Shown here one piece after another: positions 11,542-63,371 of a stretch of 64,000 nucleotides of DNA. The stretch's first letter is position 1. Each line of letters starts with the position of its first letter. Where the stretch lies: IMG/VR virus record IMGVR_UViG_3300022752_004079, positions 1 through 64,000 of that record; one strand, given 5' to 3'. A program made the translations under genes and the position numbers. The notes under the pieces were generated by a model. It had not been told where the DNA came from. It did no database searches and saw only the letters and a list, made by a program, of their open reading frames with translations. The DNA is from a virus.

Positions 11542-12606
11542 CTAATTCGATAAAGGTGCTTTAATTGTTGGGTGTGAATCGTAGTTGTACAATTGTAAAT
11601 CTTCCTCTAACAAGCACTTACAAAAGCTATCATTACTAAACCCATTAAACACTGCTACAGCATCTAAAGGACCTTCACCGCAAGAACCACCTTCATAAGG
11701 CCAAAATTCTGTGTTGATGTTTAATTTTGGTAATGGCATTAGTTCTCTTCGCAATTGTTCACGAGCCTGTTCCGTATGATTTTCATATAAATGCACATCA
11801 CCTAAATTTCCAATCAATTCATCAGGAACCATATTAACTGCTTTAGCAATTATTTCAAGTAACAATCCATAAGAAGCAATATTGAATGGTAAACCTAAGA
11901 ATGTATCTACTGAACGTTGATTCCACATTAGAGAGATTGCCCGTTTTGGAATATTAAGCTTATCTAAATCTTGAACACTCAATTCATCATGAGACTTTGT
12001 TTCTCCAAAGGCATCTAAAAGATCTCCTTTGTACATTCTCAACCTTTCTTCTGAACTCAACTCTCTTGTATAAACTTGAAATCCATAATGACAAGGTGGA
12101 AGGACCATTTCATCTAAATAATTTACATTCCACGCAGAAACTAACATACGTCTGGAATCTGGGTTTGTTTTAAGAGTAGTGATTAGTTCTTGTATTTGGT
12201 CTATACCATCCCATTTGCGCCACTGTGCTCCATAAATTGGTCCTAAATCACCCCACTTCTTAGCAAACTCATCATCGGTTTTAATTCTATCTACAAACAT
12301 TTTTTCATCCAAATGTGGTTCCCAAGGTTGGACTTTGTTTGAATAATTTTTATAAGCATCACCGGTCCAGATATTACAACCGTTATCAACTAGAAACTTG
12401 ATGTTGGTATCTCCGCGTAAAAACCACATTAGCTCGGTTGCTATTACTCGGAATGGCATTTTCTTTGTAGTAAGTAATGGAAATCCTTCACTCATCTTAT
12501 GACGTATTTGTCTTCCGAATACCGAACGTGTCTTTCCGTTTCTAGTATCCTTTTGTTGGCCGTTATGCAAAACATCATGCAGCAGTCTTAGGTAATCGCG
12601 TTCCAT
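11542..12606 (-). CDS. thyA: Thymidylate synthase
   Basis: 354 residues from the ATG at 12606 (MERDYLRLL). Makes dTMP from dUMP with methylene-tetrahydrofolate. The catalytic cysteine is in LPPCHYGFQVY, and other hallmarks are present: GRQIRHKM (phosphate-binding Arg region), MWFLRGDTNI, GPIYGAQWR, DSRRMLVSAWN, QRSVDTFLGLPFNIASY. It is longer than the 264-residue E. coli enzyme because of an insertion of about 40 residues after the catalytic loop (ELSSEERLRMYKGD... region), as in some phage and Bacteroidota enzymes. Works with the phage dUTPase and ribonucleotide reductase to supply DNA precursors. A diverged copy of the left-end junction repeat precedes the start. Confidence 0.95.
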   Translation of the reverse strand: MERDYLRLLHDVLHNGQQKDTRNGKTRSVFGRQIRHKMSEGFPLLTTKKMPFRVIATELMWFLRGDTNIKFLVDNGCNIWTGDAYKNYSNKVQPWEPHLDEKMFVDRIKTDDEFAKKWGDLGPIYGAQWRKWDGIDQIQELITTLKTNPDSRRMLVSAWNVNYLDEMVLPPCHYGFQVYTRELSSEERLRMYKGDLLDAFGETKSHDELSVQDLDKLNIPKRAISLMWNQRSVDTFLGLPFNIASYGLLLEIIAKAVNMVPDELIGNLGDVHLYENHTEQAREQLRRELMPLPKLNINTEFWPYEGGSCGEGPLDAVAVFNGFSNDSFCKCLLEEDLQLYNYDSHPTIKAPLSN

Positions 12607-45045: not shown

Positions 45046-45674
45046 TATAATGTATCGTAATATGCGTTTTGTTTTTCTTGTCGAGCAATAGTCTTTGGAT
45101 GATAAAGTGCAAATTGTTTTGCGTCTGGCATCGTTGTGTAAGTTTTAAAACCAGCTAAACGTTCATGCACTTTGTTTATCCACGTAATTTCAGCATTGTT
45201 TTTCCATATACGCCATTGATAATCAGGCCAATTGACCCAACCTTCATTGTTTACGTTCCATCTCCATTTAGCAACATGCTCGGCCGTTAAACCTTCTACT
45301 GTATTTATGCGCGGCACTAAAAAAACATCAATCTCATTGTTTTCTTCTAGCATTGCAGGTAAAATATCAATTAAATTTTCATCTGGAATTTCATCCGCAT
45401 CAATTTGAAAAATGTAATCGCCTTTGCAAAAACTAGTTAATTTGTTTTTCCAATTGGCAAAATGTCCTTGAAATTCTGCAGGCCAAACTACCATATGATC
45501 CATGTTATGACTTTCAAAAAGTCGTAACGTTGATATCAATTCAGAATCAGCTTTTGTAGTATCCAGTAGTACTACAATTTCATCTTGTTGCCGTTTATGT
45601 TTCAATAAAAAATTTAACAGTCGCTGAATTTCTATAAACTCATTGCAAACCGTGACGGCATAACTTATTTTCAT
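45045..45674 (-). CDS. Family 2 glycosyltransferase (short)
   Basis: 209 residues. GT-A: MKISYAVTVCNEFIEIQRL, DEIVVLLDTT, YIFQIDADEIPDENL (DxD). Lacks a long C-terminal region. Adds a sugar within this island. ATGA overlap with the next gene. Confidence 0.85.
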   Translation of the reverse strand: MKISYAVTVCNEFIEIQRLLNFLLKHKRQQDEIVVLLDTTKADSELISTLRLFESHNMDHMVVWPAEFQGHFANWKNKLTSFCKGDYIFQIDADEIPDENLIDILPAMLEENNEIDVFLVPRINTVEGLTAEHVAKWRWNVNNEGWVNWPDYQWRIWKNNAEITWINKVHERLAGFKTYTTMPDAKQFALYHPKTIARQEKQNAYYDTL

Positions 45675-46957
45675 GCCTCAATCTTTTTTAAATTGGGTAA
45701 TGTAATAGTGGGTTTAGTTTCGCTATCAATTTTTTTCAATTTTGGTAAATTTAAAGTTACATGCTGCGGCGACGATTGAATTGAATTATCAATAATATTT
45801 AATACTTTTTTATATACTGCGGTTACTGCAGTTTTTGTAAATGTTAAATTGACATAATATCGTTGACGTTTTGCTAATTCTTTCCATTTTTTATAATTCT
45901 TTTGAACTTCTTTCATCATTTTACCAGCATATCCATAATCTACAGTAAACCATTTTGCTCCTTTAATTAAAAATTCATTTCTAGCAGACCCATGGATATC
46001 TGTTAATACTCCTGAAAGCGGGCAAATAAATTCTTTTTTAAGAAAATCTGCTTGTCCAGAATAATGTGGAGCAATAATTGGTTTACCTGTAGTAGAAAAT
46101 TCTAATAATGGTCTTCCAAATCCTTCTGCCTTGGTAAACGATATCATAGCTTTAACTTTTGGATGATTGTAAAGCATATTCATTTCTTCATCTGCCAAAT
46201 CGCCATGTAACAAATATACATTAGGTAATTTTGCATTACCAAACATATCTTGTATTTGTGTGATTTTATTTTCAATCTCCATTCGATCCATTACGGAATA
46301 TGTTGCACCACTTGATTTCAATATGAGAGCAGGTGCATCTTTTTGATTCTTATATGTATTGAAAAAGCAATGAAGCAAGCCGCTAATGTTTTTACGATCT
46401 TCTCCAACTTGTCCTTGCAGCCAATGGCCAACTGATAAAAATGCAAATGTTTCTGGAATTTGTTCTAGAATTTCTAATTGCAATTGTACATTGTTTGTAT
46501 AAATCGTTTCATCAAAATATTCCGGAATAACTTCAATACGCGTTGTTATTGGTTTATTGTGTTTTTGTGATGTATTAACAAATACTTGTTTGGTAAATTC
46601 ACTTGGAACAATAACTAGTTGCATTGCATTCAAATTATCAATCCAAGCTTCTGGACATATGTCTCCTTCCGTTCCTGCAGTAACTCCAACATTAAATTTA
46701 CCAATTGCTTGTAATTCATTTGGAACTGTAATTTGTACCCAAATATCTGGCTGATATTGTAATGGCAATGGAATCAATCGTTTTTGCCAATCAATTGATA
46801 GTGGATAGGTAAATGGAGTATGGCCCCATGGCATTGAAACTAATTTAATGTCCCAATCGGAGTTTCGTTGTTCTATAAAATTTGCAATAATCTCTCGTGC
46901 ATGATGTCCATACCCGGATTGTGTTGCTAAAGGTGATGAAATAACTACTGTTCGCAT
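45671..46957 (-). CDS. Family 4 glycosyltransferase with LPxLKKI tail
   Basis: 428 residues. GT-B, GT4 type: PLATQSGYGHHAREII at the N-terminus, KAMISFTKAEGFGRPLLEFS (EX7E region) near the C-terminus. The last 30 residues have two copies of a short motif (LPKLKKID, LPNLKKIE), echoed at the start of the next gene's protein. Probably builds a phage-specified glycan. Start overlaps the upstream gene by 13 nt. Confidence 0.85.
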   Translation of the reverse strand: MRTVVISSPLATQSGYGHHAREIIANFIEQRNSDWDIKLVSMPWGHTPFTYPLSIDWQKRLIPLPLQYQPDIWVQITVPNELQAIGKFNVGVTAGTEGDICPEAWIDNLNAMQLVIVPSEFTKQVFVNTSQKHNKPITTRIEVIPEYFDETIYTNNVQLQLEILEQIPETFAFLSVGHWLQGQVGEDRKNISGLLHCFFNTYKNQKDAPALILKSSGATYSVMDRMEIENKITQIQDMFGNAKLPNVYLLHGDLADEEMNMLYNHPKVKAMISFTKAEGFGRPLLEFSTTGKPIIAPHYSGQADFLKKEFICPLSGVLTDIHGSARNEFLIKGAKWFTVDYGYAGKMMKEVQKNYKKWKELAKRQRYYVNLTFTKTAVTAVYKKVLNIIDNSIQSSPQHVTLNLPKLKKIDSETKPTITLPNLKKIEA

Positions 46958-48438
46958 ACTATTCCTGTTTTTTCGTATTTTTTAGTTGTAACTTTATGTA
47001 TCGTATAGTTTTTTCTCATTTGCGGTTTAGATTGGAATAAATAATCAATCATTTTAATCATTTTTTGACCCATTTGTTGAGCAGTCAATCCATTTTTTAA
47101 ACACCATTCTCTTCCTGATTGGCCCATTGACTCTCGAAGCATTTCTGGAGTGTCATACCAATAACGAATTGCATCAGCAACATCTTCGAAACGAGCTCGA
47201 TCATCAAAAATATATGGCGTTTGCGGAGAACCTTGCAAGCTTCTATTACTAGGAAATACTGGTTTTACCCAAATTCCGTGATTTTTATATTTACCCGTAT
47301 GATTTGTTGATAAATCACTATTAAATCGTATCCATTCATCATTTTCGTCGACAAATCCGCATTGATCTTGTAGTCCACCTGTTACGTTATTAATAATAGG
47401 AGTCCCTGATAACATTGCTTCGGTTGAACTTAGTCCCCAACCTTCGTTACTACCAATATTAACTACTACATCGGCAACATTATACATTGCATTTAATTCA
47501 TTTGGCATCATTTTTTGTTCAGAAAAAATAATTTTACATTCTGGCGCCAGTGTTTTATGAATTGCATTTAAATCTGTACCATTTTCATCTACAATTTGAG
47601 TATGCATTAAAAGTGCAACTTGATTTTGTTTTTCTTTTGGTAATGCGTCTACAAATGTTTTGAATGCTAATATTACATCGCCTGGTTGTTTTCTCCGTAT
47701 ATTTCGATTATTCCAAAAAACTACAAAATCAACACCATTTTTAATTTTAATACGTTCATGCATTTGTTTATATACGACATCATCTTGCGATAATGGTTTA
47801 AACGTGTTATGATTTAATCCGTGCGGAACAAATCCCGTAATAATTTGATTCCATTTTACATCTGCAGTACAAACATCGGCATCATAATCTACAATATCAA
47901 AACCATTTTGTGTAAGTACTTCGCGATGAATATTGTCTGATTGTTTGCTAATACCCATAATCAAATCGCAACTTGCATAAAATGGTGCATTCCACATTGG
48001 GTATGGTAGATCGTCCCAAATTGAGTAATATATAATTGGAAGTTTAAAGGTAGTTTTAATTTCATGTTCAATAGCATACAACCACGTCCAATATCTAGGA
48101 TCAGTAAAATGAAATATTGCATCTGGTCGTTCTTGATTTAAAATTGCAAATAATACATTTCTATCACCATACCCATTCCATGGAATAATTTTAACTGAAG
48201 CATCTGGTACGCCTGTTTCTTGTGCAACTTGCACAGATAAATCAAATGCTTGTCCGGCTTCTGGATGTTTTAATGCAGCACCCAATTGCACCCAATCATA
48301 ATGATGCACAGTGTTAAAAATAATTTCACGACTAATTGTTCCAATGCCAGATGGCAACCGAAAATCGTCTGCTAACAATAAAATTTTCTTTTTCTTGGGT
48401 TTGTTTGGATCGATTTTTCTTAATTTTGGTAACTCCAT
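46945..48438 (-). CDS. Family 4 glycosyltransferase with LPKLRKID start
   Basis: 497 residues. Starts MELPKLRKIDPNKPKKKK, then GT4 domain: DDFRLPSGIGTISREI, WVQLGAALKH, NVADVVVNIGSNEGWGLSST (EX7E). A lysine-rich linker separates the motif from the enzyme. The same LPxLxKI string is at the C-terminus of the partner, so both may dock on one protein or on each other. Motif B and an AAAGGAG site precede the start. Confidence 0.85.
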   Translation of the reverse strand: MELPKLRKIDPNKPKKKKILLLADDFRLPSGIGTISREIIFNTVHHYDWVQLGAALKHPEAGQAFDLSVQVAQETGVPDASVKIIPWNGYGDRNVLFAILNQERPDAIFHFTDPRYWTWLYAIEHEIKTTFKLPIIYYSIWDDLPYPMWNAPFYASCDLIMGISKQSDNIHREVLTQNGFDIVDYDADVCTADVKWNQIITGFVPHGLNHNTFKPLSQDDVVYKQMHERIKIKNGVDFVVFWNNRNIRRKQPGDVILAFKTFVDALPKEKQNQVALLMHTQIVDENGTDLNAIHKTLAPECKIIFSEQKMMPNELNAMYNVADVVVNIGSNEGWGLSSTEAMLSGTPIINNVTGGLQDQCGFVDENDEWIRFNSDLSTNHTGKYKNHGIWVKPVFPSNRSLQGSPQTPYIFDDRARFEDVADAIRYWYDTPEMLRESMGQSGREWCLKNGLTAQQMGQKMIKMIDYLFQSKPQMRKNYTIHKVTTKKYEKTGIVCEQ

Positions 48439-53255: not shown

Positions 53256-54515
53256 TTAAAATGTAAAGAATTTATTAAAATTTTCTGCATCGGTAGTTGA
53301 TATACTGCTACCACCGAATTTTTTGTATGTTTTGATGTATTTTTCGTATACTTGAGGTGCCGAATCTGGATCTGCAAACATTTCATGCAAAGATAAAATT
53401 ACATCATATAAATCTCTTGGTATTACTGTTTCTAGCAATTCTACGTGACTATCAACCATTTGATTGATTTCATTTGCTGCCTGTACATACAAATGCGTGT
53501 TGTGAACTACCATTCTTGGCATTGCTTCTTGAGAATATCGATCCAAACCATCTGCAGTTTTACCTCCTAGCAATTCATATGTAAAATCTTTACATGCAGG
53601 ACATCCCAATGCACATGGAACATATTGAGTCAAATCGATTGCAACTTCTCCAGTTTTACCTTGTTTGATGTGTGCCTTTCTGCGATATTCGGCATTCTTT
53701 GGAAAATACAATTCTGAAAATGATTGTGTTTTGTAATTTGTTGAATGAAGATATGTTCCAAATACTGGATATTGTCCTGGAGAAGATGAATCCGTTGTAA
53801 TATAAATTCGATTTCCGGTATGTTCATTCATTAATTTTTGCAATGTAGCCAAAATAAAGAAATCTGAAATTTTGCTAATGCCTAATAAGTGAACGTATTC
53901 TAATCGTTTATTTTCAAATTCTCGCTCTTTAAGCATCAAAGAAACCGCAAACATGAAATCAACTAATTTTTGCGGACCTCCAATTGCCCAACCTTGAAAA
54001 TCAAAATGCTTAAATTTATGATACCACCAAGTATATTCATCGGCATTTGAACCTTGCAACATGTTTAAAAATTTTGTTTTACCGCTTTGATGTTTTTCAA
54101 ACCAAGCAAAATTATCAAAACTAATGTCAGCACAATGTGCAAATTGATTGCGATATTTTGTTTTGGGCGGGATATCCAAATTAGCTGCAACATCGCTGTT
54201 TGCTTCTAACCAATGAAATATCTTTTCTCGCAATTCATTGCTATATGGCAATGCACCTGTTGCAATCTGATAACCTCCTGAGTCACCAAATACTAGCACA
54301 TCTTTTTCTAATCCCATTTGATCGCGAAAATCCATTTTCTTGTAATGATGTCCTGCCGTAACCAAAAAATATGGATGTCTCCATTCTGCAGGATATCTAG
54401 AATCAAAGAATTTTACCGGATCGCCATTTGCAAACTTCATATCTTTTTTGAATGCAGAAACCATCGATCCTGCAGATAAAGATGGAAAATATATAAATCG
54501 TTTATTTTCTGCCAT
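53256..54515 (-). CDS. dpdA: DpdA-type DNA 7-deazaguanine transglycosylase
   Basis: 419 residues of the TGT superfamily. DSGGYQIATG (catalytic-site Asp), WAIGGPQ and LLGISK as in TGT barrels, a second Asp in TTDSSSPG, and CALGCPACKDF for zinc binding. Phage DpdA proteins replace guanine in DNA with a 7-deazaguanine base. FolE, QueD and QueE for the precursor are encoded at 61.1-63.4 kb. A glycosyltransferase gene overlaps its start, hinting at a further sugar modification of DNA. Confidence 0.85.
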   Translation of the reverse strand: MAENKRFIYFPSLSAGSMVSAFKKDMKFANGDPVKFFDSRYPAEWRHPYFLVTAGHHYKKMDFRDQMGLEKDVLVFGDSGGYQIATGALPYSNELREKIFHWLEANSDVAANLDIPPKTKYRNQFAHCADISFDNFAWFEKHQSGKTKFLNMLQGSNADEYTWWYHKFKHFDFQGWAIGGPQKLVDFMFAVSLMLKEREFENKRLEYVHLLGISKISDFFILATLQKLMNEHTGNRIYITTDSSSPGQYPVFGTYLHSTNYKTQSFSELYFPKNAEYRRKAHIKQGKTGEVAIDLTQYVPCALGCPACKDFTYELLGGKTADGLDRYSQEAMPRMVVHNTHLYVQAANEINQMVDSHVELLETVIPRDLYDVILSLHEMFADPDSAPQVYEKYIKTYKKFGGSSISTTDAENFNKFFTF

Positions 54516-55530
54516 TGTATTCCTTTAGTTTATTAATTAATCGTTTTGCTGAAAAAAAGTTGTTATGCAATCTTTCTACCAATTGTGCTATATTTTCAGA
54601 TATGTTTTTTTGTTCGTATTCCAATATTGCCGTAACTGCCATATCAACCGAATTAGCTTGTTTAAACATTGGATCATACATTTCTGAATATGATAATCGA
54701 TTTGGTACCAATGGGCATGCTCCGGCACAAGCTGATTCGTACATTGAAATGCCCAATGTTTCTTGATCTGCAAACGAAACTGCAAATCGAGCACGTTGTA
54801 GCAACACATGATATTCTGTTTTTGTCAAATTCATTTTCATAGCAACACAAAATTGATAATGTGCCAATTCTGGACGAGCTGCCAATTCTTGAAACAAATC
54901 TAATCGTTTTTCCGGTGCAATGCGATGTGGAAACACAATGATATTTTCTTTTTTATCCCAAGCTTCTGGGGCAATCATTGATTTAGTATATTCCATGGGC
55001 CAACCTGTTTTATCAAACGATGAATCATGAAAAATATCATATGTTTGATTCATTAATTTGAAATGTGCTGCTGTTGCAATCCAATTGCGATCATATGCTG
55101 CAATCATGGCCTGTTCAGCGTGTCGTATCCATGGTTTATCTCCTACGAGTCGACCTAAAAAATCATTTGGGTCATATGAACCCGCGTGCCAAAGTCCGTG
55201 CGTTACAACAGGAATATTTAAAAGTTCACTCATGTATTTTACATTGATAATACCTGGATGCCAAGCATCTGTAAAAATAATATGATCTCCTGCTTGTATT
55301 GTTCCGTTCGTAAATAATTCTGCTAATCGATGCACTTGTGTTGATTTGTACATATTGGTACCACCAAAATTCAAAAAGGCACCTGGTGTTGCAGCTTTTG
55401 GTATTGTGGTATCACCCTCAACTACTTCAACATCAAATCCATTATCTTGAAGCAATTGCGGTACATGTGTTTTCCATTCGCAAGTATAACGAGTTGGAAC
55501 TGATTCTATGTCTACTAAATATATTTTCAT
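54502..55530 (-). CDS. GT-B glycosyltransferase overlapping dpdA
   Basis: 342 residues from ATG 55530 (MKIYLVDIESVPTRY). GT-B shape: NWIATAAHFKLMNQ, IVFPHRIAPEKRLDLF, and FADQETLGISMYESACAGAC (EX7E-like) near the C-terminus. It is far from the glycan island, inside the replication/modification cluster, and overlaps dpdA by 14 nt. A role in glycosylating modified DNA bases is possible, as with T4 alpha/beta-glucosyltransferases, but it may also act on another target. Confidence 0.75.
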   Translation of the reverse strand: MKIYLVDIESVPTRYTCEWKTHVPQLLQDNGFDVEVVEGDTTIPKAATPGAFLNFGGTNMYKSTQVHRLAELFTNGTIQAGDHIIFTDAWHPGIINVKYMSELLNIPVVTHGLWHAGSYDPNDFLGRLVGDKPWIRHAEQAMIAAYDRNWIATAAHFKLMNQTYDIFHDSSFDKTGWPMEYTKSMIAPEAWDKKENIIVFPHRIAPEKRLDLFQELAARPELAHYQFCVAMKMNLTKTEYHVLLQRARFAVSFADQETLGISMYESACAGACPLVPNRLSYSEMYDPMFKQANSVDMAVTAILEYEQKNISENIAQLVERLHNNFFSAKRLINKLKEYNGRK

Positions 55531-55531
55531 A

Positions 55532-55882
55532 TTATCTTTCAATAACGCAACCATTTTCCCAATCTTCCCAAACTTCTACTTTGTAAAGAGTTGGAAATTG
55601 TTCTAGTAACCATTCTCCAATTGCCTCACACGACATTGAATCAAATTCCAATACATTAGTTTCTGATCCAGTAAACCCAATTCGCAACGCTTTTTGTATT
55701 TTGCGATTCAACAAAATAAATTCTTCATCACGATCTGTATGCGTTACTCGTGCATAACAACGAAAGCCGAACATGTGACGATGTCTATCTGATAAAAATG
55801 CTACTTCTGGAAAAACATCTTTAGCTGCAGGCCAACAATGAAACCCTTCGATACTAAATGTTACTACTACGCTGTACTTCAT
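55532..55882 (-). CDS. QueD-like small protein (divergent)
   Basis: 116 residues. FSIEGFHCWPAAKDVFPEV, then LSDRHRHMFGFRCYA and SCEAIGEWLLEQF resemble the 6-carboxytetrahydropterin synthase fold: His residues at the expected zinc positions (HRH), and a TAE-like helix. It is shorter than QueD and the catalytic Cys is not clear. A divergent QueD-like protein, perhaps modifying pteridine or deazaguanine metabolism. A clear QueD is at 62240-62704. Confidence 0.6.
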   Translation of the reverse strand: MKYSVVVTFSIEGFHCWPAAKDVFPEVAFLSDRHRHMFGFRCYARVTHTDRDEEFILLNRKIQKALRIGFTGSETNVLEFDSMSCEAIGEWLLEQFPTLYKVEVWEDWENGCVIER

Positions 55883-56285
55883 CTGCTATTAATTTTTTAT
55901 ATTTAGTTGTTGACCAACCGTGGTCTCTGCTTAAGTATTGAATTGGAAGATCTAAATCATCGCCCGTAAATTTCTTTCCGATGTAATCATCACCTAAATA
56001 ACGAACATATTCGGCGGATTTGTTTTCAGCAAACTGCTTTAATTTATAATGCAATTCCGATTCTAATGTATATGGAATAACATGATTAACGTGTCGCAAT
56101 GCAATCAACATTGATGCTCGATCTTTAACTGAAAGAACTGGTTTCATTTTTTCGGGACGTTCAATTGTTGGATCGGTTTGGAGCAATACCCATACCTGAT
56201 CACATTCATCTTCCATTTGTTCAAACATTTCAATGTAGCCTGGATGTAATACATCGAAGCTACCGGCAATAAGTCCTATCTTCAT
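55854..56285 (-). CDS. Cytidylyltransferase-like nucleotidyltransferase
   Basis: 143 residues. GSFDVLHPGYIEMF (the HxGH-like motif is HPGY here) and, at the end, LSRDHGWSTTKYKKLI as the ISTT-type motif of glycerol-3-phosphate cytidylyltransferase and RfaE C-domain. It would activate a phosphorylated sugar or polyol with CTP or ATP. The second His of HxGH is replaced by Tyr, so activity is uncertain. Overlaps the QueD-like gene by 29 nt. Confidence 0.75.
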   Translation of the reverse strand: MKIGLIAGSFDVLHPGYIEMFEQMEDECDQVWVLLQTDPTIERPEKMKPVLSVKDRASMLIALRHVNHVIPYTLESELHYKLKQFAENKSAEYVRYLGDDYIGKKFTGDDLDLPIQYLSRDHGWSTTKYKKLIADEVQRSSNI

Positions 56286-56704
56286 TGTCTATCAAATTTA
56301 TACATATCGGGTGTAACTTGTTGCATATTGTGAACCGTTGTGCAATACAAAGAATAATCTGCATATACAACTTTGATGCTATCTGTTTGTTTTAACAATG
56401 CAGCATCTTCACAATCTAACATCAATAAAATGTGTGCTCTAATTCTAATCATGGGTGGTACGTGTTTTAACATACCAGGAGTAACTTCAATCGTAACAAA
56501 TGTAGTATCGGTTATCATTGCAAATATTGAATCCCATGATTGATTTTTAATTAATTGTTTTGTTGCTGGAGAACAAAAATAAATGTGTGCACAAGGTGTT
56601 AATTTTTTATACATTGCTTTGACATCTGAAATAAACAATGTTTCGATATCTGTAAAGCGTCCTTCAACTTCTTTACCATACCAATGCGTTTTATAACCAA
56701 TCAT
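56282..56704 (-). CDS. Hypothetical protein (140 aa), operon head
   Basis: 140 residues, starting MIGYKTHWYGKEVEGRFTDI. Alpha/beta, several Cys, no known domain. First gene after the class A promoter at 56707-56738, so it heads the operon containing the nucleotidyltransferase, QueD-like, GT, DpdA, clamp and clamp loader genes. Confidence 0.6.
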   Translation of the reverse strand: MIGYKTHWYGKEVEGRFTDIETLFISDVKAMYKKLTPCAHIYFCSPATKQLIKNQSWDSIFAMITDTTFVTIEVTPGMLKHVPPMIRIRAHILLMLDCEDAALLKQTDSIKVVYADYSLYCTTVHNMQQVTPDMYKFDRQ

Positions 56705-57275: not shown

Positions 57276-59792
57276 TCATTTTCCGAAACTAAAAAATTTT
57301 GCTACCGAATTATTTTCTGGAAATGCCCCCCAATTCATTGCAGCATAAAAATCATCCAATTTATTTTTCAATTCTTTTTCAAAGATTTTATTGCGGTCAA
57401 TGTATTGAGTAACAAAATCAACAATTTGTGATGGATCTTCATATCCTCGCAATGCCATTGTATCAAATCCATATGGATTATCTGACAAATATGCCCATTT
57501 TACTTTTTCACCATTTTGAATGAGTTCAACATCGCGAATTCCATGCATTGATAACAAATCATTAAAATTGATTGCAGCTTTAACGTGTGCTGGAGTACCT
57601 TTTTCGTATCCCGTAAATGGTTTGCGACCTTTTGTAAATTTTGATATTTCTTTAACTCCAGAATTTTTCATTACATTGAGTACTGGAGATGATTTTAATC
57701 CAGATTTAAATTTATGAATCATATCCGTAGTTTCGGTTTTATCTTTTTCTTTAAGAATGTTCCACAATGTTTCTTTCATGATTTTTTTGAAATCTTCTGG
57801 AAATGATGATCTAACAACATCTAATCCTTTAATATCAAGTTTATCCGTAGGTTTGCCTTCTTTAAAAATAACCCATTGTGCATATCGCTTTTTAGCAATC
57901 CATAATCCAGATTTTGCAACATATTCTTGTTTGATTTGCCAACGATGTGATTTAGTATTGTGAAATACGTCGGCATAACGGTCATACATTGTGTTCACTA
58001 ACTTTTGTATTTCCGATGCAATTGCATTGGTTTGGTCAATCATAAATTGTTCATCTGATTCATCAAATTTAGGAAAACGTTTTGCAATAAGTGGTAAACT
58101 AGAAACAAATGTTGAATCTGTATCTGTATAAAAAGCAAATTCTGCTTTACCATTGGTTGCATTAACAAAATAATCTTGTCCCGTTTCTTTTGCATAATGA
58201 TTGTTAATTACCTTTGCCGAAAATTTAATTACGCTTTGACCTGTAGCGGTAATTGCACCTGCATTATCCAAATCATGAAAGCGAAATGTTTTAAGTCCCA
58301 ATACTCCATAAAATGAATTAAGCAATACTTTTTGTGTTAATTGCAATGCATCATAAAATTTATATTCTTCTGTTCCAACTGCATATTCATCTCGTTTGTC
58401 TTTGTAGGTAACTCGTTCATCAAACCATTTTTCAAGAATTGCTGGAAGAAACCCTTTGCGATCTGTGCGATACACTGCACCATTACTTGCAACAACATGT
58501 TGTGTATCTTGCAGCCAAGTTTTAACATTTTGTACATATGTACCATCAACAAACTTTGCTTGTTGTGCTTCATCTTTCAATAAACATTCTTGATTCCAAT
58601 TGGAAATTACTCCTATTTTAGTTTCTGGAGAAATATTCAAACTCATGATAATGCTTGGATATAATGATGTCAAATCCAAATCATAAATCCATTTATACAA
58701 TCCTGGTACTGGATCTTTTACATATGCTCCTGCAAGTGCATCAGCTTCCGATTCTTCTTCAACAAAGCGAAATTGTTTGTTAGGAGCAACTAATCCATTG
58801 CGTTTTAAATCTACAATTGCTGCACCATCCAAATATTTAGATGCATAGTATACATCTTCATAAGGAACATGTCCTTTATGACATATGGTTCTTGCAAGTG
58901 CAATTAATTGTAGTTTTTCATCCATTTCATAAATTAGTTCAACATCTGTTACGTTGTATTCAACAAATTTGTGAATGTCTGTTGTAAACAATTGATCTAA
59001 ATCACCATCATATTCAACTTTACCTCTGCCCAATTCTTTTTTTGCAACAGTATCTAAACGGTAATTTGGTAACTCAGTATACGTAAACTTTTTGTATAAT
59101 GTTAAATAATCTAAACTAGATACGCCAAATATTTTGTAACGATCTCGATTTTTGTTCCATTCAACAATGCCCGCAGGAGATAATTTTTTGATTGCTTGTG
59201 CACCTAATATTTTTTTGATGCGATTAACAAGATATGGAATATCAAAATTATCTGTATTCCATCCGGTAATTACGGTGGGCTGTATTTCTGCAAATGCATT
59301 GATAAACCGCATAAGCATTGTTGCTTCAGAATCAAATATTTCTACATCATATTTATTGGTAGAAAATGCATCGTGTTTTATTCTTTTTGATTCGTCTAAC
59401 AACAAAACTTTCATGGTACGCCCAGCTTTATCATAATATGCAATGGACGTTATTCGTGAACGAGCTTCTTCGGGGGTCGAATACCCATCTTCGTCCCGTT
59501 CTACTTCAATATCAAAGAAAAAGTCTCGATGTCCTTTGGAAACTAAATCGCTTTCGTAATAAAGATCAATAAGCGTACGCATTTCTTCATTTAAATCGGA
59601 TTCATATGCAGTTGCATTGTCTTTCCAATTGCCATCTACACGAGATAAACGAGTTCCATCTAAAGATTGATGTTGTCCCGAATCATCTGGTAAATATGCA
59701 TATGGTTTGAATGGAAACTTTTGATGTCCCAATTCATCATCCCATACGTGCATAATTCCATTCTTTTTGTCATAACCGATTGCTTGATACAT
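57276..59792 (-). CDS. gp43: DNA polymerase, family B (gp43-like)
   Basis: 838 residues. Exonuclease domain: FFFDIEVERD (DxE at 94-96), GWNTDNFDIPYLVNR (ExoII), YNVTDVELIYEMDEKL (ExoIII). Polymerase: DLTSLYPSIIMSLN (motif A), KVLLNSFYGVLG (motif B), FYTDTDSTF (motif C). T4-type replicative polymerase with proofreading, slightly shorter than T4 gp43 (898). Would act with the gp45-like clamp. Start overlaps the hpt stop (TAATG). Confidence 0.96.
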   Translation of the reverse strand: MYQAIGYDKKNGIMHVWDDELGHQKFPFKPYAYLPDDSGQHQSLDGTRLSRVDGNWKDNATAYESDLNEEMRTLIDLYYESDLVSKGHRDFFFDIEVERDEDGYSTPEEARSRITSIAYYDKAGRTMKVLLLDESKRIKHDAFSTNKYDVEIFDSEATMLMRFINAFAEIQPTVITGWNTDNFDIPYLVNRIKKILGAQAIKKLSPAGIVEWNKNRDRYKIFGVSSLDYLTLYKKFTYTELPNYRLDTVAKKELGRGKVEYDGDLDQLFTTDIHKFVEYNVTDVELIYEMDEKLQLIALARTICHKGHVPYEDVYYASKYLDGAAIVDLKRNGLVAPNKQFRFVEEESEADALAGAYVKDPVPGLYKWIYDLDLTSLYPSIIMSLNISPETKIGVISNWNQECLLKDEAQQAKFVDGTYVQNVKTWLQDTQHVVASNGAVYRTDRKGFLPAILEKWFDERVTYKDKRDEYAVGTEEYKFYDALQLTQKVLLNSFYGVLGLKTFRFHDLDNAGAITATGQSVIKFSAKVINNHYAKETGQDYFVNATNGKAEFAFYTDTDSTFVSSLPLIAKRFPKFDESDEQFMIDQTNAIASEIQKLVNTMYDRYADVFHNTKSHRWQIKQEYVAKSGLWIAKKRYAQWVIFKEGKPTDKLDIKGLDVVRSSFPEDFKKIMKETLWNILKEKDKTETTDMIHKFKSGLKSSPVLNVMKNSGVKEISKFTKGRKPFTGYEKGTPAHVKAAINFNDLLSMHGIRDVELIQNGEKVKWAYLSDNPYGFDTMALRGYEDPSQIVDFVTQYIDRNKIFEKELKNKLDDFYAAMNWGAFPENNSVAKFFSFGK

Positions 59793-60298
59793 TAATTAAC
59801 CTTGTATATGTCTTGTAATTCTCGTAATAATCCATTATCATCCAATCCGTAACCAACTACCCATTCATCATTAATTTCAAACCCATGAAAGTTAGTTAGG
59901 TCTACGCCCCCACGTCGTTTCAACAATGTAACAACTTTTACGCATTCTGCCATCCGGCTGTTTACCATAAACAACATTTCCATGATGCTAGCACCAGAAT
60001 CGCAAATATCATCTATAATATAAACTCTTTTACCACGAAGTTCCAAATCAATTGTTTTAGTTGTTGAAATTCCTGCAGAATTATCTCGACCACGATATGA
60101 TTGTAACCCAGCAAAATCAATTTCATGCATAATTGTCATGGATCTGCTTAAATCTGAAAAGAAATGCACGGCACCATTAAGTACACAAACCAGTACCGGG
60201 GGCAGGATATTGCCAGAGTCAATATGATCTTGTGAAATTTCTTGTGCCAATTCTTTAACACGTTGTTGTATTTGTTTTTGTGTTATGATTTTTTCCAT
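59792..60298 (-). CDS. hpt: Hypoxanthine phosphoribosyltransferase-like
   Basis: 168 residues. PRPP-binding motif VYIIDDICDSGAS, the GAVHFFSDLSR loop, and C-terminal LKRRGGVDLTNFHG fit the type I phosphoribosyltransferase Hpt/Hgprt. It would salvage hypoxanthine or guanine to IMP/GMP during infection; it lies next to the DNA polymerase. A phage-borne copy is uncommon. Confidence 0.88.
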   Translation of the reverse strand: MEKIITQKQIQQRVKELAQEISQDHIDSGNILPPVLVCVLNGAVHFFSDLSRSMTIMHEIDFAGLQSYRGRDNSAGISTTKTIDLELRGKRVYIIDDICDSGASIMEMLFMVNSRMAECVKVVTLLKRRGGVDLTNFHGFEINDEWVVGYGLDDNGLLRELQDIYKVN

Positions 60299-61057: not shown

Positions 61058-61113
61058 CGTGTTATTTCGTATATAATTTTAATATCGCCAATAGTTGTTG
61101 TTGTGTAATACAT
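61054..61113 (-). CDS. Tiny peptide gene (19 aa) with strong RBS
   Basis: MYYTTTTIGDIKIIYEITR. ATG at 61113 overlaps the queE stop (TAATG), a strong GAGGAG lies about 5 nt upstream, and the stop overlaps the thioredoxin start (ATGA). The perfect fit between two genes suggests translation, perhaps to couple queE and trx. Confidence 0.45.
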   Translation of the reverse strand: MYYTTTTIGDIKIIYEITR

Positions 61114-61910
61114 TATACTCCTCGTTTTGTGTCAAATGCAATAATATGGTCTCGTCCTGTCATGTTATATCCATGTTCGGCACACATATCAAATACCACC
61201 GGATACATATGAATTAATTCTTCTCGGGTATCGCCTGCAGGCATAATGTATGTTTTGTCTTTAGGAATATTCATTTCTATGCGAAACGTTTCAATTTCTT
61301 GTAAATTTTCTTGAGTGCCATCCCATACTGGTTTATAATGATAATCCGTATGAAATTCTATCATTTGTTTGATTGCATCTTTGTTAAGACGAAATTTTTC
61401 GTGTTGCGCCACCATCTTCTCATCCGTAATCGTGCCTTGCGGCGTAGCAACGCCCACAACGGGAACACTGTTATTAAACTTAGGGCTAAGACTAACCAAA
61501 CCAATAGGGTAATCAGTGGCGATAAAATGAGATCCTTCTGTCTCAATCGTGATAAGAATGTTTCTTTCATGTGCAAAATGTGTTAATTCATTTACCAATG
61601 TTGGATGCATTGTTGGTGATCCGCCAGTTAACATCATTTCTTTGATATGAGGATTTTCATCATATATCTTGATAATGTCATTGAAACAAAATGTTCCTTT
61701 TTCTGGATGTATACTTGTATACCAGGAGTCGCACCAACCACCTTGGCCAAACCAGCAACGATGTGTACAACCGGTTGTTCGTACTGCTATTGTAGGTCTA
61801 CCAAATCGGCTTCCTTCTGATTGAATGCATCTATACAATTCAACAATTGGTAACGTTTTATCGTAGTCTGTGATTCTTTTAGAATGGAAGATCGTCATCG
61901 TGGTACTCAT
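61113..61910 (-). CDS. queE: QueE, 7-carboxy-7-deazaguanine synthase
   Basis: 265 residues from ATG 61910 (or 261 from 61898). Radical SAM: GCTHRCWFGQGGWCDSWYT supplies three cluster cysteines with an insertion between the second and third compared with the classical CxxxCxxC; GGSPTMHP is the SAM-binding GGE-like site; ETEGSHF matches QueE. Converts 6-carboxytetrahydropterin to 7-carboxy-7-deazaguanine. Forms a set with FolE and QueD directly upstream and DpdA. Confidence 0.88.
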   Translation of the reverse strand: MSTTMTIFHSKRITDYDKTLPIVELYRCIQSEGSRFGRPTIAVRTTGCTHRCWFGQGGWCDSWYTSIHPEKGTFCFNDIIKIYDENPHIKEMMLTGGSPTMHPTLVNELTHFAHERNILITIETEGSHFIATDYPIGLVSLSPKFNNSVPVVGVATPQGTITDEKMVAQHEKFRLNKDAIKQMIEFHTDYHYKPVWDGTQENLQEIETFRIEMNIPKDKTYIMPAGDTREELIHMYPVVFDMCAEHGYNMTGRDHIIAFDTKRGV

Positions 61911-62250
61911 TACTATTGGTAACATTATTATCTAATTTTTTTATTAATTCTTTGATTTGAGTTTCTAGGTTGTTTAATCTAGATTCAATTTCTATCAAAG
62001 CCGATCGTCTTACTATCGGTGTCGTATCAACTTCTACTTTAGTTGCAAAGTATTCATCTAAAAATGATAACGGATACAATTGCACTTGAGTATATTCAGG
62101 TTTCTGCATATCTTTTGGTAACATTTTCCATTTAAGTTCAATACCTTGTTTGATAGCTTCGGCTGTTACTTCTCGACCAATGTTCGATCCACCAGAACCT
62201 TTACCTAAATATTCAAAAAGCGATAGATATGTTTCTTCATTATTCTTCAT
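61879..62250 (-). CDS. Protein with SSB-like DDDLPF C-terminus
   Basis: 123 residues from ATG 62250 (or 132 from 62277). No known domain in the first 80 residues (MKNNEETYLSLFEYLGKG), then a coiled-coil-like stretch (IESRLNNLETQIKELIKKLD) and a final acidic tip ending DDDLPF. This tip is like the C-terminal peptide of bacterial SSB, which recruits repair and replication enzymes. The protein may act as phage SSB-like partner or as a decoy for SSB-binding proteins. Overlaps queD and queE. Confidence 0.65.
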   Translation of the reverse strand: MKNNEETYLSLFEYLGKGSGGSNIGREVTAEAIKQGIELKWKMLPKDMQKPEYTQVQLYPLSFLDEYFATKVEVDTTPIVRRSALIEIESRLNNLETQIKELIKKLDNNVTNSNEYHDDDLPF

Positions 62251-62704
62251 AACTTGCTGCATTTCTTTCGTGTTCATAAACTTCTACTTTAACGGCTCTT
62301 ACTCTACCATTAGTTTCTACTGCTAAAAAATCATTTATTGTATAGTATAAATATTCGGCAAATCTTTCACATCCGGTAGCAGGTAAAATACGTAATTGAA
62401 TTACTCCGCAATCATGTAATTCTTGAAAAGTAAATAAATACGGATCATCTTGTGCTACGATTGTAGTGTGGTCTAAAAGATATGTAAAATAGTCTTTTGG
62501 AGACATACCTTCAATTTGAGTTTTTGCACGTTTCATACCACCAAAATCCCAAACCCAATTTCTTTCATCTAATTCACCTTCAAACCATACTCGAAATGAA
62601 ACTGCATATCCATGTAAATATTTACAATGTGTGCCAACTGCGCGCCATTGGCGGAAACATGTTGAATACCCGTCAAATAATTTAGTTGATTGAAATTTAG
62701 CCAT
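62240..62704 (-). CDS. queD: QueD, 6-carboxytetrahydropterin synthase
   Basis: 154 residues. Family hallmarks: CFRQWRAVGTHCKYLHGYAV (Cys and His metal site, HGY), LDHTTIVAQDDPY, and the C-terminal CERFAEYLYYTIND with EVYEHERN. It makes 6-carboxytetrahydropterin from dihydroneopterin triphosphate supplied by FolE. In the same operon as folE and queE. Confidence 0.9.
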   Translation of the reverse strand: MAKFQSTKLFDGYSTCFRQWRAVGTHCKYLHGYAVSFRVWFEGELDERNWVWDFGGMKRAKTQIEGMSPKDYFTYLLDHTTIVAQDDPYLFTFQELHDCGVIQLRILPATGCERFAEYLYYTINDFLAVETNGRVRAVKVEVYEHERNAASYEE

Positions 62705-62705
62705 A

Positions 62706-63371
62706 TTAATAACCTTTTACGAATTCATAAAATTCTGCTCGGGTAGCATCATCATCTCTAAATGCACCGGTTAACTTGGATGTCTTCATTGAAGCTCCGC
62801 CATGTTTAACTCCTCGACATTGAACACAATTATGAGTTGCTTCAATCATAACAGCTACACCTTTATTGTCATTGATAATAGTATTGATAGCATTATGAAT
62901 TGCTACCGTTAATTGTTCTTGTATTGCACCTCTTCTACCAAAATGCTCTACTAATCGATTTAATTTTGATAATCCGATAACTTTGCTATCAGTACCCGGA
63001 ATATACGCAACATAAACTCGACCCATAATGGTTTGATGATGATGCGAGCACATTGAAGTTAATGGAATACCTCCTTCAAATACCATACCATCATATCCAT
63101 CAGATGGAAATGCAGTGATGTCTGGAGTGCCATCATATCGACCTGCCCATAAATCATTTACATATGCTTTTGCAACTCTTCTAGGAGTATCTGAACTATT
63201 AGGATCATTACGCCAATCACACTTAAGTGCATCAAGAAACTCGCCAAATGCTTTAGCAGCTTCTTCAATCATTTTGTCTTTTTCTTGTCGGGTAAATGGT
63301 GCACCGGGAGCAGAACCATTTGCATAACCTAATTTAACTAATTCTAAATTATTTCTTTGTTTTTTTGTCAT
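62706..63371 (-). CDS. folE: FolE, GTP cyclohydrolase I
   Basis: 221 residues. Signature SMCSHHHQTIMGRVYVAYIP, KVIGLSKLNRLVEHFGRRGA, QEQLTVAIHNAI and THNCVQCRGVKHG (zinc and substrate residues: C and HHH, and Cys). First step from GTP to dihydroneopterin triphosphate; here for 7-deazaguanine rather than folate. Its own promoter lies directly upstream. Confidence 0.95.
   Translation of the reverse strand: MTKKQRNNLELVKLGYANGSAPGAPFTRQEKDKMIEEAAKAFGEFLDALKCDWRNDPNSSDTPRRVAKAYVNDLWAGRYDGTPDITAFPSDGYDGMVFEGGIPLTSMCSHHHQTIMGRVYVAYIPGTDSKVIGLSKLNRLVEHFGRRGAIQEQLTVAIHNAINTIINDNKGVAVMIEATHNCVQCRGVKHGGASMKTSKLTGAFRDDDATRAEFYEFVKGY

Follow-up and report, generated by a model that had tools for sequence, protein, structure and literature searches.

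To our knowledge, glycosylation as a DNA modification is confined to pyrimidines. For purines, phages possess a 7-deazaguanine pathway, FolE-QueD-QueE-QueC-DpdA, described for 9g, CAjan and Rosebush, among others (PMC6884629), and bacteria carry dpd islands composed of dpdA-K (PMC11888242). The portions of the literature on 7-deazaguanine DNA covered here mention small derivatives of the base only. We describe a viral locus in which the gene for a candidate DNA-guanine transglycosylase of the TGT superfamily overlaps that for a glycosyltransferase (GT), amid genes that make 7-deazaguanine precursors.

The locus lies in a 64,000-nucleotide stretch of DNA (the window) from an IMG/VR virus record of 71,599 bases. 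On the minus strand, the genes run folE, queD, an unassigned gene, queE, groES, a phosphoribosyltransferase, polB (closest among named phages to that of Microcystis phage Mel-JY01, 45%), two unassigned genes, a cytidylyltransferase-like gene, 55532-55882, the GT, dpdA, clamp, dUTPase and clamp loader, where clamp and dUTPase have no profile match and are so labelled by their sequence and position. The features discussed below are as follows.

53256-54515, minus strand: dpdA, candidate TGT-superfamily DNA-guanine transglycosylase of subtype a (419 aa; TGT motifs, distant profile matches, BLAST link to Peetri)
54502-55530, minus strand: GT-B / GT4-type glycosyltransferase (AlphaFold2 fold, Foldseek and VIA matches, kept motif residues)
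55532-55882, minus strand: QueD-like T-fold protein (phrog_17812, E 1.9e-24; profile, AlphaFold2 model, alignments A5 and A7)
55854-56285, minus strand: cytidylyltransferase-like nucleotidyltransferase (PF01467, 1.5e-10)
56282-56704, minus strand: protein with no family above threshold; 4-nt overlap with the nucleotidyltransferase gene
59792-60298, minus strand: phosphoribosyltransferase (PF00156, 5.5e-22)
61113-61925, minus strand: queE, 7-carboxy-7-deazaguanine synthase (phrog_2076, 1.2e-47; TIGR03365, 4.1e-14)
61879-62277, minus strand: gene without a confident family, overlapping queE and queD (from the ORF list)
62240-62704, minus strand: queD, 6-carboxytetrahydropterin synthase-like (phrog_2389, 1.3e-36)
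62706-63371, minus strand: folE, GTP cyclohydrolase I (phrog_2197, 5.7e-62)

As the preliminary description had it, the GT-B gene overlaps dpdA by 14 nt (54502-54515, by ORF coordinates). The pair also sits, as claimed there, inside a replication and modification cluster, flanked by polB on one side and on the other by the clamp gene, which lies 13 nt downstream, and in the company of folE, queD and queE, apart from the glycan island at 45671-48438, whose two other GT genes are 6-8 kb away. The GT reading frame is open as far as 55554 (54502-55554, 350 aa), and its likely start at 55530 is an internal ATG, codon 9 of the frame; this start is better than 55554 because homologues begin there and because only 1 nt then separates it from the stop codon of the gene upstream, 55532-55882. 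The latter overlaps the nucleotidyltransferase gene by 29 nt, and the dpdA ATG is immediately preceded by an AAAGGA-like ribosome-binding sequence. The order GT-dpdA-clamp is seen again in 135 loci of relatives (some on the same contigs), with the dpdA start falling between 10 nt inside and 11 nt past the end of the GT match in 116 of 124 measurable loci, and 51 nt past it in the remaining eight. Since gene order and spacing repeat across these relatives, the arrangement is not due to chance.

The name DpdA for the 53256-54515 protein is a candidate one, drawn from catalytic motifs and distant profile matches, as the protein itself has no Pfam match. D78 (in DSGGYQ) and D242 align with the aspartates of DSGGFQ and MFDCVMPTR in E. 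coli TGT, and the LD and QG motifs are also kept in the alignment with E. coli TGT and its relatives. The protein matches TIGR00432 (TgtA) faintly (E 0.0036); among 20 members of its family, three match TIGR00432 and one TIGR00449 (best E values 2.5e-5 and 3e-6, respectively), and a Peetri protein linked to it by BLAST passes the PF01702 cut-off. PDB sequence searches with this DpdA alone or with the DpdA profile returned nothing useful. At the zinc site, CxCxxC...H, the protein shows CALGCPAC (x3 spacing); in this alignment, CxCxxC is kept in PhiXhv and Peetri and missing from Cassandra, Phosso and the type b members. Judging by the TGT motifs, the product would exchange guanine in DNA. Three DpdA subtypes can be distinguished: a (53256-54515, Cassandra, Phosso), b (ACP17, X1, BUCT-ZZ01) and c (Ahp1, D479, RHph_I1_18). 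Subtypes a and b are related (hhalign probability 96), whereas type c gave no hhalign match with type a (probability 3.7), so that calling type c TGT-like is a matter of motif inspection. None of the three profiles aligned in hhalign with the single DpdA of 9g, a single sequence being a poor partner.

Animal tRNA contains glycosylated queuosines, a precedent for a reading in which DpdA, as a TGT-superfamily enzyme, and the GT act together on tRNA and yield a glycosylated queuosine-like base, like the animal Q-tRNA enzymes. Yet PF01702 is matched over the cut-off in two of 18 records searched (none in the own record and five relatives) against all 14 control genomes, a pattern that DNA-type paralogues should give, and the genes lie within a replication cluster; tRNA is a quite improbable substrate, and DNA is the one we retain for DpdA.

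The AlphaFold2 model of the GT (pLDDT 91.5, 35 sequences) has a GT-B fold, with VIA Z scores of 26.6-21 over about 285-325 residues against GT4 enzymes. Nearest to it by Foldseek and VIA-align are sucrose-phosphate synthase, BshA (Foldseek E 5e-11), MshA and tetrahydrobiopterin glucosyltransferases; a PDB sequence search with the GT alone returned nothing useful. The R/K and E-x7-E residues, which we take to be the donor-phosphate motif of GT4-type glycosyltransferases, correspond to R211 (35/35), K216 (34/35), position 265 (E in 18 sequences, D in 17) and E273 (35/35), and because these positions are kept in 34-35 of 35 sequences, the protein is probably active as a GT4 enzyme. It is acidic (pI 6.1, family median 5.5) where T4 beta-GT is basic (9.05), and thus bears no sign of DNA binding; the GT4 enzymes nearest in fold act mostly on small molecules or glycans. 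Q-tRNA glycosyltransferases and the T4 alpha- and beta-GT are absent among the fold matches listed for the GT, which excludes nothing.

The acidity would also suit an enzyme that glycosylates a pterin or another soluble FolE/QueD intermediate, as cyanobacterial BGluT does with tetrahydrobiopterin, while the deazaguanine in DNA stays bare. UDP-glucose:tetrahydrobiopterin glucosyltransferases are among the close folds (9v0l, Z 22.7; 5zes, Z 22.4), and FolE and QueD are both encoded in the cluster. BGluT, however, ties with many other GT4 folds, and the genes with which the GT is linked are dpdA and the T-fold gene, and Gat-QueC in PhiXhv-15. We consider a pterin acceptor unlikely, and continue with a deazaguanine acceptor.

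The gene at 55532-55882 is the third member of a conserved cassette with dpdA and the GT; its family, phrog_17812, carries no functional annotation. The AlphaFold2 model of its product (pLDDT 93) is a T-fold nearest to E. coli QueD (Foldseek 2.4e-6; 4ntk, Z 12.4, rmsd 2.2, 105 aligned). H15, H34, H36 and E106 are kept in the T-fold alignment (A5). By eye, A5 shows no conserved counterpart of C27, the Cys that precedes the zinc His pair, or of the Asp-His D78-H79, all of which are invariant among the phage QueD sequences (A7). It is structure that supports the relation to QueD, since hhalign of the T-fold and QueD profiles matched only the C-terminal 44 columns; the first T-fold alignment found nothing useful in a search of PDB sequences. 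A separate QueD is encoded in the same cluster, at 62240-62704; that QueD and the other phage QueD proteins of A7 have HGY at a site where cellular QueD has HGH. The T-fold gene is near FolE or QueE in 11/11 named phages examined, among them Cellulophaga phage phiST, where it stands beside FolE, QueD and QueE.

The linkage recurs in unrelated phages. Twenty phage records, forming six lineages, contain the GT family, and in all six representatives examined the gene lies within a deazaguanine cassette, with DpdA, FolE, QueE or Gat-QueC adjacent or no more than a few kb away: Cassandra (dpdA-GT overlap, QueE), ACP17, Phosso, X1, BUCT-ZZ01 and PhiXhv-15 (beside Gat-QueC). In PhiXhv-15, three consecutive genes encode the GT, a PIG-L deacetylase and Gat-QueC, the last (L142, 4753-6276) being annotated as a fructose-6-phosphate aminotransferase and identified as Gat-QueC by its QueC domain; in this phage and in Phosso, dpdA is far from the GT. 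The GT is present in 18 of 23 long records, 17 of which also have the T-fold gene at a GT/T-fold gap of 0-1,422 bp; random placement would give such closeness with a chance of ~10^-13.6 (a rough product, with 8 lineages taken as separate).

The GT is present in 61 of 82 loci retrieved through the T-fold gene. The 82 comprise 41 viral loci (divergent, L180-L220, drawn from the best 80 of 593 confirmed viral T-fold matches), 30/30 genome-contig loci and 11 from named phages, and the HMMs were built in part from some of them. The GT accompanies DpdA of types a/b in 51 of 52 loci and type c in none of 16, DpdA not being found in the other 14; the sole a/b locus without it (L194) ends about 0.6 kb past the T-fold gene. 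The Fisher value of this association, 1e-14, is conditional on the T-fold gene, as all 82 loci are T-fold hits, and treats loci as independent though several are near duplicates (for example L207/L208, and four Magnetospirillum loci plus L248). GT distances follow DpdA distances weakly (Mantel r 0.36, reached by 0/2000 shuffles, n=37), while the correlation between DpdA and T-fold distances is 0.79, which suggests that the GT is exchanged more freely; against FolE, the GT gives r 0.05, reached by 345/2000 shuffles (n=20). The alignments omit sequences cut by contig ends or with stops or N, as well as a GT fragment from L197, one of the T-fold hits in L207 (the second), 4/15 QueD and 2/7 type-c DpdA sequences. 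Peetri, whose genome encodes a type-a DpdA and gives QueC matches, is absent among the GT and T-fold matches listed; a type-a DpdA can thus occur without the GT in a genome with QueC matches. That the GT is functionally tied to the deazaguanine pathway is, on this evidence, very probable.

Other GT genes are found in the glycan island, elsewhere in the window, and the enzyme could in principle decorate virion or host glycans, its position in the cluster being accidental. Against this, the island GT at 46945-48438, taken as a control, matches 12 phage records, with none among the 20 that have the dpdA-linked GT, and in the two of these that were examined, Mel-JY01 and immuto_2-6A, the homologue is surrounded by other glycan genes, about 14 kb from the annotated dpdA in the latter. 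On the distribution and context of this control we reject an origin of the GT from the glycan island, and a role on glycans is highly improbable. Nor does another base appear a promising acceptor, such as a 5-hydroxymethyl pyrimidine glycosylated independently of DpdA. The window does contain a thymidylate-synthase-family gene (11713-12597), and this family includes hydroxymethylases, but nine of 16 GT-bearing records examined, including ACP17, X1 and BUCT-ZZ01, have no match to the family. Dependence on a hydroxymethylase-type gene is thereby rejected, and we give a pyrimidine acceptor little credence. A 7-deazaguanine, then, is the acceptor that we prefer.

Which deazaguanine this might be is suggested by the distribution of QueC. 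QueC matches occur in four of 22 records, over the cut-off in two and at full length in PhiXhv-15 only, the one record of the 22 without the T-fold gene; the D479 match spans positions 133-201 of 210. Full-length QueC is found in none of the 21 records with the T-fold gene, and no QueC is present in the 71.6 kb of the own record (a fragment) or in relatives G002-G004 (131-160 kb). Because the T-fold-bearing phages are without a full-length QueC, the inserted base is probably 7-carboxy-7-deazaguanine (CDG) or a derivative such as plain 7-deazaguanine, not preQ0, unless host preQ0 is used. Cui et al. (2023) reportedly found dCDG and dDG in phage DNA and named DpdL a 7-carboxy-7-deazaguanine decarboxylase; the T-fold protein is a candidate for the decarboxylation step attributed to DpdL. 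The preliminary description had proposed that the GT could add a sugar to the 7-deazaguanine in DNA. The part of this proposal that places the GT in the service of the deazaguanine pathway is strongly supported by the repeated linkage in unrelated phages, and the dpdA/GT pair stands, but a picture of two genes overlooked the third, QueD-like gene and the absence of QueC, which alter the likely base.

Several accessory genes accompany the cassette. A GalE-like epimerase lies beside the GT or DpdA in nine of 57 clustered divergent loci (PF01370, 7.9e-44 for one member), and a sulfotransferase-like gene occurs in seven of the 57 (PF03567, 4.9e-5 for one member), as an ORF touching or just before dpdA (L193, L194, L198, L203, L215, L217, L218) that perhaps points to a sulfated sugar. 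Epimerase, deacetylase and sulfotransferase neighbours fit a variable sugar decoration. Relatives of the nucleotidyltransferase are found in 10/57 divergent loci, and the 55854-56285 protein could possibly activate the sugar donor. A 175-aa protein (L217, 8534-9058), located mostly between dpdA and the T-fold gene, occurs with its relatives, which include ASD50402 of ACP17 (L138, 7320-7718), in 20/57 loci and matches nothing in Pfam or PHROG. Deazaguanine cassettes repeatedly contain phosphoribosyltransferase genes (59792-60298; L137, 11330-11764; L148, 4456-4917; L254, 1932-2327, in immuto_2-6A), similar ones being held by the Cassandra and BUCT-ZZ01 cassettes, and their products could recycle the guanine freed by base exchange. 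In Xanthomonas phage X1, a PAPS-reductase-like gene and an unassigned gene lie within the FolE-GT-DpdA-QueE cassette (L141, 7332-8517). Downstream of type-c DpdA, a GT-A-like protein with a DxD-like motif, phrog_1574, is seen in L145, L182, L187, L189, L191 and L206; it could represent either a GT that serves as an alternative or a gene of general occurrence in phages.

The triad of GT, T-fold protein and DpdA also occurs in Magnetospirillum, on contigs that range from 31 kb to 1.4 Mb (L246, 8817-12899; L245, L247, L249), with QueD, HEPN, CoiA-like nuclease and two-component genes nearby in L246, and in Aurantimonas (L243, 8041-11418), where the VUT transporter family is weakly matched nearby. 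These loci may be defence islands or prophage remnants. The triad is possibly a bacterial version of the modification system.

In the proposed mechanism, FolE, QueD and QueE, families assigned by profiles and with established reactions, would make CDG from GTP. The QueD-like T-fold protein would then process CDG in place of QueC, for example by decarboxylation, DpdA would swap guanine in DNA for the base derived from CDG, and the adjacent GT4-type enzyme would move a sugar from a nucleotide sugar onto the base, either free or already in DNA. The likely benefit of a glycosylated base would be protection from host nucleases. Every step past QueE, together with the identity of the sugar and its attachment atom, is one that we infer, set upon an observed gene set and observed folds, motifs and linkage; the sugar step in particular is proposed because of the linkage of the GT to dpdA and the deazaguanine genes. 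The interpretation we favour, with moderate confidence, is that the activity of this cluster leaves phage DNA with a glycosylated 7-deazaguanine. Against it count the acidity of the GT, the weak agreement of its distances with those of DpdA, the remoteness of dpdA from the GT in Phosso and PhiXhv-15, and the case of Peetri. Attachment of the sugar to the base in DNA is its most economical form and is held with similar assurance, glycosylation of the free base before DpdA being equally open because the GT is acidic and its nearest GT4 folds mostly act on small molecules or glycans. A broader proposition seems to us evenly balanced: that DpdA, GT and T-fold protein form a portable three-gene module which writes a glycosylated 7-deazaguanine into the DNA of many unrelated phages and some bacteria, with a sugar sometimes epimerised, deacetylated or sulfated and a base for which the QueE product is the source and QueC is dispensable. 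Such a base would be a new class of hypermodified purine in DNA.

A GT joined to deazaguanine DNA was not found in the literature searched, including the available parts of PMC6884629 (whose main text has neither the term 'glyco' nor ACP17), PMC12783734, PMC12707154, PMC13216743, PMC12028318, PMC11079468, PMC10002423, PMC11888242 and PMC11945000; for DpdL, the matches listed held only unrelated acronyms. Provisionally, glycosylated deazaguanine DNA is unpublished within this literature, Cui 2023 and de Crecy-Lagard 2024 lying outside its coverage. If the proposal is true, a sugar on deazaguanine adds a purine branch to glycosylated DNA and explains the 'hypothetical protein' genes in the cassettes of the cultured Pseudomonas jumbo phages PA5oct, Cassandra, Paride and Callisto, and the triad in Magnetospirillum and Aurantimonas suggests that some bacteria may use glycosylated deazaguanine too.

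Compared with the known systems, the locus resembles the pathway of 9g, CAjan and Rosebush in that FolE, QueD, QueE and a TGT-superfamily transglycosylase cluster with replication genes, and differs in having no QueC in the cluster and, in addition, the QueD-like T-fold protein and the GT. The T-fold protein would fill the step attributed to DpdL. With BshA/MshA-type GT4 enzymes and BGluT, the GT shares the GT-B fold (Z 22-25 across some 290-320 residues) and the R/K and E/D-x7-E motif, at about 10-14% identity and in a context of deazaguanine and DNA that sets it apart. As for T4 beta-glucosyltransferase, which acts on hydroxymethylcytosine DNA, a DNA-modification GT gene adjoins a base-making gene in a replication region; the base is different, however, and the T4 enzyme is basic where the GT here is acidic. 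The bacterial triads recall the dpd islands in having dpdA with QueD (L246) or a YhhQ-like transporter (L243) nearby, and depart from them in the GT and T-fold partners, which are not named for dpd islands in the available part of PMC11888242.
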